A stretch of 63,064 nt of DNA. It comes from Nitrosopumilus sp. Its GTDB lineage: Archaea; Thermoproteota; Nitrososphaeria; Nitrososphaerales; Nitrosopumilaceae. The stretch is from positions 42,250 to 105,313 of the forward strand of contig JAOTWS010000004.1 in the NCBI GenBank assembly GCA_029862745.1, in the 5' to 3' direction. The notes beneath the pieces are model-generated. The model worked only from the letters and a program-made list of their open reading frames with translations. It had not been told where the DNA came from and made no database searches. How positions within the stretch are numbered: the stretch's first letter is position 1; every line of letters begins with the position of its first letter. The translations under genes were made by a program, and so were the position numbers. This document shows positions 50,514 to 63,064 of the stretch, one piece after another.

Positions 50514-50594
50514 CTAGTCCTCGTAAAAAATCCAGGACAATCCCTGTACTTCTTCCCAGCTACTTGATTTGTTTTGATTAGGTTCATTGCTCAT
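50514..50594 (-). CDS. GLSWIF microprotein, copy 1
   Basis: 26 residues with a polar N-terminus (MSNEPNQNKSSS) and core SWEEVQGLSWIFYED. The core matches the protein at 58418-58498 at 9 of 11 positions while the flanks differ, which shows selection on the peptide. A TATA-like TTTTATTC lies about 25 bases upstream of the ATG, so the transcript is leaderless. It is divergent from the structured RNA block at 50697. Acidic, amphipathic, no metal motif. Confidence 0.7.
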   Translation of the reverse strand: MSNEPNQNKSSSWEEVQGLSWIFYED

Positions 50595-50696
50595 GGTATT
50601 GTATTGGTACAATTTGAATAAAAGCAAAACGAATGATTCGTTCATCTCATTCATCAGGTTATTTGTATGAACTAATAACTTACAAAAGATAATTTG

Positions 50697-50955
50697 AAAG
50701 GATGGGCAGAAGCTGGCCCGATCCCTTGTATGGTAGATAATGGTCGGTTTTTGGTTAAACGGTTAGAAAATGACTCCTCCGCATAATCCCAAATTACTAA
50801 TTACAAAGTTTGCATAAAAGAGAGACGAATAATTCCTCAGTATGATCTAAATACTATTTCTGTAAAACTAGGACATAGATATATTGGATCTTTCACCAGA
50901 TAACTGATCGTTGCTGGTCTTAAGATTCAACATTTTATAAAAAAATAATTTTTTT
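50697..50955 (+). ncRNA. Structured RNA candidate, copy 1
   Basis: A ~260-nt non-coding block homologous to 58585-58856. A 5' hairpin GGATGGGC/GCCC(G)ATCC (50700-50724) and a 3' stem ACCAG/CTGGT (50895-50899 with 50914-50918) plus AAC/GTT are kept. Identical short blocks: GGTCGGTT, TTTGCATAAAAG, CTAAATAC, GGTCTTAAG. It ends in the T-run at 50949-50955. No frame is conserved between copies. Transcription is inferred rightward from the terminal T-run; not proven. Confidence 0.6.
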
Positions 50956-51356: not shown

Positions 51357-53303
51357 TTACTCCAGAGGTGTCGTATCAAACATCTCTTTTTCCTGTGCAG
51401 TAGGCTCAAACTTTGTAAATACTCGATGCTCTTCAGTTAGGAATAATGCCTGACCTTTACTGAGTCTCTTAAGATTCTCAGTTTCCTTCTCAGATAAATT
51501 AAGAACTTCTTTTGCCTTTTGTGCTGCCTGTTCATTTAGACCCAGCATTATCTTGGTTGCAATATTATCAATGATCTTGCCAATTCCTCCTTGTGATTCT
51601 TCAGAGATATCCTCTACTCTCTGAGATATGAACACAAACATGATGTTGAGTTTTCTTCCCATTCTCACTATCAGATCAATGTATTTGGCAGTATGTGGCA
51701 TCTTAAACATGCGCCATGCCTCATCAACAACTAGAATTTTTCTAGTCGTTACAGGCAAGTCATGACAAATCTTAAAAATTTTATTTAATAATAATACGAG
51801 AATCATTGCTTCTGAATCAGTTGCAGTTGCACCACCCTCCATTGATACAACGATTCTCTTCTGAGTGTTGAGTTTAGGGTAACCAGACATGACTCTAGAT
51901 AATGGTCCATCAATTAGATGATCAAGGTATTCTCTATCTTTTTTTGAGAGTTTTTTGTAAAACTCTTTGATAGATGAGGCCTTGTCACAATACTTTTGAA
52001 ATTGAATACGTGTGGTATCAGGTGCGTTTGTGATTTCTGATAAAATGTCAGCTGCATCCTGTGCATCAAGTATTTGGAATGGATCTAGCCCCAACTCTTC
52101 ATCACTTTTTGTTATGTTTAGTGTATCCATTCCAAAAAAATTAGCAATTCTGCCATACTCGTTTGTAGGATCTATAACATACACATGTGAATCAGGAAAT
52201 TTCTGGTTCAGTCTATTTAATAGAATCTTTGCTGTAAATGATTTTCCTGAACCTGATGTTCCAATCACTGCAATGTTGTAATTGGTTCTTTTACCAATAT
52301 CAAAAATTACTGGGCCTTTAGAGTAGATGTTTCTGCCCAACAGAACACCATTTGGAATTTCAAGCATGTCACCTGATGAGAAAGCATAAAGAATTGCACA
52401 ACTACCAAGATCAAAAGTTAATTTTTTTCCAAACCCTTCCAGTAATACAGCTGCTTGTTTTGCAGGAACAACAGTAAATGATCCTTTCTCTCTTTTTGTA
52501 GTTTCCTTGAATTTTGTCTCAGCTTCTTTTAGTTTCTTTTTATCCATAGCTGCCACTGTACAATTGATGGTACACTCGTACAATCCCGTCTCTTGTCTGT
52601 CCAATAACTTTAGTGTGGAATCTGCCTTGTCATGTAACTTTTTAGAATTGTAATTTATTTTTGAATCCTCTGCAATTACACTCTTGAATCTATTTAGCCT
52701 AACTGCTGCATCCTTTTCATTTACGGGGTTCATCCAGATTTGTACCTGTGAGCAGGCAGAAAATATGTTGACAATCCATGAGGCGTATCTAGTTGCAGGT
52801 AATTGATACAAACAATAGCATTTGGCGTGAATTGTATCAAATTCTGTATTGATATTATCATCAGAATCTGAATTTGTCTCTAATAGTTCCAGTCCGTTGA
52901 AGAATTCCTTTTTTATTCTCAGGTTTGGTGGTCTCTCACCTGCAATGTATTCTAGTTTGATCTGCTCTAGTGTGTCAGATAGTGGCTCCATTGACTCTAG
53001 ATGAACCTGCATTACAGGCATTGCCCTTAGTTGACCCTCAATTACTATGTTCATTATTTTTTTAAATATTGTAATTTTGATTTTATCTTCTATTACACGC
53101 AAAATATCCAAGAATTGTCCAATCTTTTTTGTTTGGTTTTCAGGTGATAGATTAACAAAGTTTGTTGGAATTATTCCATAACTATACTCAAAAGAGTTTT
53201 TCAGTTTTGTATCTGGTAATTTGTATAGTCTTTTTTTTATTTTCTTTGGAGTAGATTTTTTCTTTGCATTTGTTTTATTTTCAAATAGACTTGGCTTCTT
53301 CAC
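51357..53303 (-). CDS. VirB4/CedB-like conjugation ATPase
   Basis: 648 residues. A basic N-terminus and an ~300-residue VirB4-type N-domain precede the ATPase. Walker A GTSGSGKS at about 348-355, then VYVIDPTNEYG, and Walker B KILVVDEAW at about 522-530, followed by an ISQRVEDISEESQG sensor region. This matches VirB4/TrbE and archaeal CedB-like ATPases that power type IV secretion or DNA import. It lies downstream of membrane and PrgI-like genes, forming the energetic core of the module. Confidence 0.85.
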   Translation of the reverse strand: MKKPSLFENKTNAKKKSTPKKIKKRLYKLPDTKLKNSFEYSYGIIPTNFVNLSPENQTKKIGQFLDILRVIEDKIKITIFKKIMNIVIEGQLRAMPVMQVHLESMEPLSDTLEQIKLEYIAGERPPNLRIKKEFFNGLELLETNSDSDDNINTEFDTIHAKCYCLYQLPATRYASWIVNIFSACSQVQIWMNPVNEKDAAVRLNRFKSVIAEDSKINYNSKKLHDKADSTLKLLDRQETGLYECTINCTVAAMDKKKLKEAETKFKETTKREKGSFTVVPAKQAAVLLEGFGKKLTFDLGSCAILYAFSSGDMLEIPNGVLLGRNIYSKGPVIFDIGKRTNYNIAVIGTSGSGKSFTAKILLNRLNQKFPDSHVYVIDPTNEYGRIANFFGMDTLNITKSDEELGLDPFQILDAQDAADILSEITNAPDTTRIQFQKYCDKASSIKEFYKKLSKKDREYLDHLIDGPLSRVMSGYPKLNTQKRIVVSMEGGATATDSEAMILVLLLNKIFKICHDLPVTTRKILVVDEAWRMFKMPHTAKYIDLIVRMGRKLNIMFVFISQRVEDISEESQGGIGKIIDNIATKIMLGLNEQAAQKAKEVLNLSEKETENLKRLSKGQALFLTEEHRVFTKFEPTAQEKEMFDTTPLE

Positions 53304-58417: not shown

Positions 58418-58498
58418 TTATTCGTTACTATTATCATCAACGAATATCCAGGACAACCCCTGTATTTCTTCCCAAGTTGAATTGTTATCTTGATTCAT
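58418..58498 (-). CDS. GLSWIF microprotein, copy 2
   Basis: 26 residues, MNQDNNST followed by WEEIQGLSWIFVDD and a polar end. It has the same length and core as copy 1 with conservative changes (V/I, YED/VDD). TATA-like TTTATATAC lies about 22-28 bases before the ATG, giving a leaderless message. Divergent from the structured RNA block at 58585. Confidence 0.7.
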   Translation of the reverse strand: MNQDNNSTWEEIQGLSWIFVDDNSNE

Positions 58499-58584
58499 GG
58501 TGTGACATTACAAAATTTGTATATAAAATTCAAGAAGGAATTGTTCATACAAATCATCAGTAAAGGTCATAAGAATTTTAAGAT

Positions 58585-58856
58585 AAGAGTTGGGCCAAAG
58601 TTGCCCAACTCGGTATGGGACGTAAACTATCTGGTCGGTTAACAGATGAATAACTACTCCATCGTATTATGTACGGATAAACTATACAAAATTTGCATAA
58701 AAGGTAAACTGAGGAATCATCAGCAGGTCCTAAATACCATAATATCAAAATCAATTCAGTTGGAACTGTCACCGAGACAACAAACCATAATTCATCTCCC
58801 GTGCATCATGTATCGTTGTCGGTCTTAAGTTCCAATGTTATTGTTTTCTTTTTTTT
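58585..58856 (+). ncRNA. Structured RNA candidate, copy 2
   Basis: Homolog of 50697-50955. The 5' hairpin GAGTTGGGC/GCCCAACTC (58587-58611) is a perfect 9-bp stem whose sequence differs from copy 1 but pairs as well. The 3' stem ACCGA/TCGGT (58771-58775 with 58819-58823) replaces ACCAG/CTGGT, two compensated pairs, followed by CAAC/GTTG. A middle hairpin CGTA-TTATG-TACG is also seen. It ends with the T-tract at 58843-58856. Not protein coding. Confidence 0.6.
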
Positions 58857-62748: not shown

Positions 62749-63064
62749 ATGGGTTTGTTGGATAGATTTAGTCGTACGTTTGACAAGCATGGATACGACC
62801 TAGATGGGTATGATAAAAATGGGTTTAATAAAAAAGGATATGACAAAAATGGGTACGATAAAAAAGGATATGACAAAAATGGGTACGATAAAAAAGGATA
62901 TGACAAAAACGGGTTTAACAAAAAAGGATATGACAAAAAAGGATATGACAAAAGAGGATACAAAAACGGGTATGATGAAGATGGATTTGATTTTAAGGGT
63001 TACAATAAAGATGGATTTAACAAAAACGGGTTTAACAAAAAAGGATACGACAAAGATGGGTATG
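62749..63064 (+). CDS. YDKNG-repeat protein (partial)
   Basis: Runs off the right edge; 105 residues visible. After MGLLDRFSRTF the protein is a tandem array of the pentapeptide G-[YF]-[DN]-K-[NKDR], about 18 units, for example GYDKNGYDKKG. The DNA repeats with a 15-base unit. Asp/Asn-Gly-Tyr spacing resembles calcium-binding or carbohydrate-contacting repeats, but no known family is certain. No signal peptide, so likely cytoplasmic. The two strands both stay open, an effect of the repeat. Confidence 0.7.
   Translation, partial: MGLLDRFSRTFDKHGYDLDGYDKNGFNKKGYDKNGYDKKGYDKNGYDKKGYDKNGFNKKGYDKKGYDKRGYKNGYDEDGFDFKGYNKDGFNKNGFNKKGYDKDGY

Follow-up and report, generated by a model that had tools for sequence, protein, structure and literature searches.

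Two repeated non-coding blocks in a Nitrosopumilus genome, candidate loci of divergent structured small RNAs linked to a microprotein

Among the non-coding RNAs described from marine microbes, Yfr103 of picocyanobacteria is an expressed, multi-copy RNA of ~290–328 nt (PMC5069720), and the Tan1 RNA of Thalassoarchaea is a euryarchaeal, abundant transcript of 229 nt (PMC5069720). Here, we analyse two blocks, at 50697–50955 and 58585–58856, in a 63,064-nt stretch of DNA from Nitrosopumilus sp. (contig JAOTWS010000004.1; hereafter, the window). As a sequence-only reading of the window had reported, the two blocks align end to end, including the identical short islands that it named, and end in T-runs. 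Any frame, on either strand, is open through ~240 nt in just 1 of 106 distinct copies, consistent with its claim that the blocks are non-coding. That reading proposed a selected, structured RNA of ~260 nt; selection, structure and compensated helices are upheld, and many homologs are found, whereas a single rightward ~260-nt transcript is probably wrong. The blocks are homologous, non-coding, selected and structured, and the compensatory helices beyond controls, together with the lack of a conserved reading frame, place them among structured non-coding RNAs.

In dozens of relatives, base changes on one side of the two hairpins reported earlier are compensated on the other. In the 3' hairpin (ATTGGAACTnTCACCAA..CGTTGnTGGTCTTAAGnTCCAAT), 87.4% of the cells are paired and the covariation score is 0.138, a count that also takes in a proposed 5' mini-hairpin, and 0 of 500 shuffles (0.099 ± 0.005) match this score; slid versions reach 0.044 at most. 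Compensatory change occurs at several of its pairs, with AU 15 and UA 14 at pair 58/124, and CG 35, UG 13 and UA 4 at pair 71/112. The 5' hairpin, GGGC, is 92.1% paired with a covariation of 0.322 against 0.133 ± 0.018 (again 0 of 500 shuffles), and varies as AU 15, GC 15 and CG 5 at one pair and as UA 27 and AU 8 at another. A long-range pairing noticed by eye between the apical loop of the 3' part and its 5' domain (CTAACCG/CGGTTAG) is broken in several copies and was rejected.

The two hairpins differ in their strand signals. Read on the plus strand, the 3' hairpin contains GU in 37 and AC in 12 cells, a count that omits the alignment-ambiguous pair 69/113 (48 to 27 with 69/113 and 58/124), whereas the 5' hairpin is reversed, with GU 7 and AC 16 in a small sample of 23 cells; these are counts of sequences, not of independent events, and presuppose a correct alignment. 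On the same presupposition, TTTTT follows the 3' hairpin in 50% of copies against a background of 12%, and AAAAA, a T-run on the other strand absent from the earlier reading, precedes the 5' hairpin on the plus strand in 30% against 3%. Because the wobble is reversed and A-runs precede it, the 5' hairpin is best read as terminating an RNA of the minus strand (GATTGGGCAATTTGGCCCAATCTTTTTT). A TTTGC[TA]TAAAAG block between the hairpins is conserved ahead of 105 aligned copies, and the central TTTGCATAAAAG island resembles a TATA box. This TATA-like block, taken with the reversed wobble and the A-runs, argues for two RNAs diverging from one TATA box: RNA-R on the plus strand, which looks to end in the GGTCTTAAG hairpin and a U-run, and RNA-L on the minus strand, which looks to end in the GGGC/GCCC hairpin and a U-run. 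The central promoter, P2, would thus be used in both directions, and a single 260-nt RNA fits the wobble asymmetry and the A-runs less well.

Homology extends left past the reported blocks to about 50514 in copy 1 and 58418 in copy 2, and at both places its limit is the stop codon of a 26-codon minus-strand ORF. The features are listed below, with RNA-R matched by R1, a covariance model built on the ~90 conserved nt of the 3' part, and RNA-L by a second model, R2.

50514..50594, minus strand: micro-ORF copy 1, read from the sequence, 26 aa (MSNEPNQNKSSSWEEVQGLSWIFYED), pointing away from the RNA block
50613..50657, no strand assigned: putative promoter module P1, copy 1, TATA-like TTTGAATAAAAG with CGAATGATTCGTTCAT..TTCATCAG
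50690..50788, minus strand: candidate RNA-L copy 1, ends estimated, leftward as far as the GGATGGGC/GCCCGATCC hairpin (50700–50724) and U-run; R2 match 50694–50790 (minus), 42.1 bits, within the model's own alignment
50809..50838, no strand assigned: putative central bidirectional promoter P2, copy 1, TTTGCATAAAAG and a conserved ACGAATAATTCCTC spacer
50839..50945, plus strand: candidate RNA-R copy 1, ends estimated, with a 5' AGTAT-GATCTAA-ATACT mini-hairpin, then the ATTGGATC..ACCAG..CTGGTCTTAAGATTCAA hairpin and a U-run; R1 match 50836–50932, 90.8 bits, within the model's own alignment
58418..58498, minus strand: micro-ORF copy 2, 26 aa (MNQDNNSTWEEIQGLSWIFVDDNSNE), from the sequence and family matches
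58516..58560, no strand assigned: P1-like module, copy 2, TTTGTATATAAAATTCAAGAAGGAATTGTTCATACAAATCATCAG, by comparison with copy 1
58578..58672, minus strand: candidate RNA-L copy 2, with estimated ends and the GAGTTGGGC/GCCCAACTC hairpin at 58587–58611; R2 match 58582–58673 (minus), 51.1 bits, within the model's own alignment
58691..58721, no strand assigned: putative P2, copy 2, ATTTGCATAAAAGGTAAACTGAGGAATCATC, from the conserved-block alignment and the sequence
58722..58856, plus strand: candidate RNA-R copy 2, whose apical arm is longer and whose end is a T-run; R1 match 58719–58837, 70.5 bits, within the model's own alignment

Since the window copies sit in the alignments of both models, these R1 and R2 scores are not independent evidence. 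Folded alone, the copy 1 block is no better than its own shuffles (z −0.78), and the copy 2 block is better (z −3.49), as are its RNA-L hairpin (z −3.18) and RNA-R fold (z −2.97). In RNA-R, the CTAAATAC loop and a TC/CTTA internal loop are unpaired and strictly conserved. The AGTAT/ATACT mini-hairpin, which stands at the 5' end of RNA-R if the estimated start A50839 holds, shows no two-sided changes and is therefore only suggested. The P1 motif is the sole zero-mismatch match in the window, has none in shuffles, and also precedes other copies. A wider regulon sharing this promoter motif was considered and rejected, the few additional sites being close to the control count. One further copy of the promoter module (L272) adjoins a different small gene and has no RNA-R downstream.

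A DNA search with a 461-base query gives matches in 44 of 150 relatives (E ≤ 1e-4) and many diverged partial copies in the home genome. In response to the question of further homologs, R1 finds 12 copies in this genome (E < 1e-6) and matches in 72 of 300 relatives, with 1–14 copies per genome. Across a sample of the phylum it matches 43 of 397 genomes, and among the matches listed in the R1 searches RNA-R is restricted to the family to which the window belongs; a scan with an exact pattern returns Nitrosopumilus and Nitrosarchaeum records and a few others with broader or inconsistent labels. No match was found in the viral contigs, phages and plasmids searched. The earlier impression that the RNA is neither RNase P, SRP nor another known family agrees with Rfam 15, which gives no match in the window at the gathering score, sub-threshold ones lying far below the cut-off, and in the relatives' loci matches a neighbouring tRNA alone, in 8 loci. 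A search of the literature available to us found no paper describing this RNA.

The module is not always complete. The 5' GGGC hairpin is undetected by pattern in about half of the 106 RNA-R copies, and in short forms it is the micro-ORF or a secreted-protein gene that occupies this promoter's left side; an enrichment of signal peptides among divergent neighbours (26 of 52 vs 76 of 274) is confounded by synteny and was set aside. With R2, 23 of 120 genomes have matches, about 50 copies in all; among the matches listed most adjoin an RNA-R copy, with a few remnants lacking an intact one.

Paralogous cassettes within one genome have ~220–410 bp in common between unrelated flanks, and a stretch of 99 nt recurs at 100% identity in two contexts. 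The homology of the cassettes breaks off abruptly at the stop codon of the micro-ORF and at the RNA-R hairpin, so that the cassette appears to move or to be copied as a unit. At several loci both flanks are kept across species, and at several the neighbours are convergent and lie within 10–20 nt of the hairpin, which argues that the RNA is not the UTR of a fixed gene. The copy 2 locus has the same arrangement in one relative, and the RNA is decayed at paralogous loci; three orthologs of the DUF541-like gene beside copy 2 (named by eye) have neither the RNA nor the microprotein part. Elsewhere in the window, 62749–63063 (plus strand) encodes a highly repetitive YDKxGYDKKG protein, a similar one standing beside another RNA copy (L030), and a VirB4/TraC-like ATPase ORF, assigned by eye, at 51357–53303 (minus strand) lies near small membrane-like ORFs, which suggests a secretion or conjugation-like cluster.

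The divergent peptide to the left of each block, missed by the earlier reading, is ~25 aa long with the family motif x-W-E-E-x-x-G-L-S-W, and is acidic, Trp-rich and soluble-looking. The microprotein family occurs in 60 of 160 genomes and 6 genera of the same archaeal family. Of its 102 members, 29 have an RNA-R copy no more than 600 nt away, where 0.06 would be expected, and all 29 are divergent to it at a spacing of 44–58 or 199–257 nt; many RNA copies have no intact micro-ORF. Codon changes in the micro-ORF are mostly synonymous, with a dN/dS of about 0.15 over a 14-codon block, a value biased low by pattern selection. These comparisons indicate that the microprotein is under purifying selection and tightly linked to the RNAs. 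Three members gave no Pfam or NCBIfam family at E ≤ 1. Longer relatives of about 50–60 aa (L239–L256) have W-[EQ]-[ED]-x-x-G-L-S-W close to their C terminus, which suggests that the family of small proteins is a broader one. In addition, some of the microproteins that lack RNA-R stand opposite another kind of hairpin RNA, itself preceded by a similar promoter motif (type B; L192, L193, L222, L228, L229, L230 and L236), in which ACCCGACCATACC is followed by a GATTCAA..TTTGAATC hairpin and a T-run, divergent to MQDNNNQSSWEEVIGLSWLISDE-like microproteins. RNA-L and type B have CCGACCATACC in common by eye, yet type B goes undetected by R2, so that their homology is unproven.

Taken together, we regard it as reasonably likely that each block is a divergent small-RNA locus with one central TATA box, joined by a divergent microprotein expressed from P1. 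P2 would drive RNA-R (~95–130 nt) rightward and RNA-L (~90–100 nt) leftward, each ending in its own hairpin and U-run, and P1, a second module of the same kind on the left, would drive expression of a leaderless microprotein of ~25 aa in the direction leading away from the RNAs. The RNAs would be made and stable and may act in trans; most simply, the conserved unpaired parts of RNA-R would form a protein- or target-binding platform, with the microprotein as its partner or a co-regulated product. We infer a trans-acting RNA, or an RNP with a microprotein partner. It is a more tentative proposal, and a rather doubtful one, that these loci make up a family-wide archaeal regulatory module in which the two divergent small RNAs cooperate with a dedicated microprotein of ~25 aa, in an RNP or feedback circuit, and which spreads within genomes as a discrete cassette.

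The strongest rival, though an unlikely one, is a non-autonomous mobile cassette resembling a MITE or an IS200/605 derivative, whose terminal hairpins are constrained by mobility and not by RNA function. The shared ~220–410 bp bounded by the micro-ORF stop and the 3' hairpin between unrelated flanks, the 1–14 copies per genome and the identical 99-nt stretch would all suit such an element. However, flanks are conserved on both sides across species at several loci, the promoter block, terminator runs and microprotein are all maintained, the viral, phage and plasmid collections are without a match, and no transposase was identified, nor any target duplication in an unsystematic search. Less probable again is one continuous ~260-nt rightward RNA running from P1 to 50949–50955, the central TATA-like box being a motif of that RNA: covariation is seen in both hairpins, which are found together in about half of the copies, a plus-strand T-run closes the block and P1 is plausible as a rightward promoter, but the excess of AC over GU in the 5' hairpin and the A-runs ahead of it point the other way, and many copies consist of the 3' half alone behind the same TATA block.

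The tight divergent linkage might also reflect a type I toxin–antitoxin-like or microprotein-autoregulation pair, with the microprotein as effector and the RNA as its control, the more so as further microproteins without RNA-R adjoin a second, similar-looking RNA. We consider this improbable: type I systems combine a small hydrophobic toxin with an antisense RNA, whereas this peptide, acidic and Trp-rich, is not of the hydrophobic membrane type, the RNAs are located next to the micro-ORF and not antisense to it, and many RNA copies occur without an intact micro-ORF. A DNA regulatory or terminator element, with a bidirectional promoter between two terminators and no functional RNA as its product, would fit the L272 module, which has no RNA, and the conserved features that include a promoter-like block and terminator-like hairpins. 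This is very unlikely, since a terminator would not require the conserved CTAAATAC loop and internal-loop residues, and no fixed downstream genes accompany the block.

Nitrosopumilaceae are among the most abundant archaea of the ocean. An RNA family with up to 14 copies per genome that is missing from Rfam, together with linked microproteins that match no known family and share a putative bidirectional promoter layout with it, would be a concrete, testable regulatory system, and would also explain intergenic repeats in these genomes. Our analysis further cautions that covariation across a block need not mean one RNA, as the block can comprise two RNAs on opposite strands.

Comparison with known systems places the locus as follows. 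Like MITE- or PATE-like insertion-sequence derivatives, it is a short cassette found at scattered sites, with a hairpin close to each end; it differs in its conserved syntenic loci, TATA block and coding microprotein, and no transposase or target duplication was identified. Yfr103-type RNAs are likewise paralogous, structured, lineage-restricted and non-coding in marine microbes, a likeness drawn from their description, and belong to a different domain of life. Tan1, also likened by description, is an orphan structured RNA of marine archaea as here, but is euryarchaeal and detected as a transcript. The archaeal intergenic regulatory small RNAs are structured and multi-copy, as here, and stand-alone with a promoter and terminator of their own, as the candidate RNAs would be; by comparison, the present family has no sequence or model match in Rfam 15 and appears to combine a divergent pair of RNAs with a microprotein.
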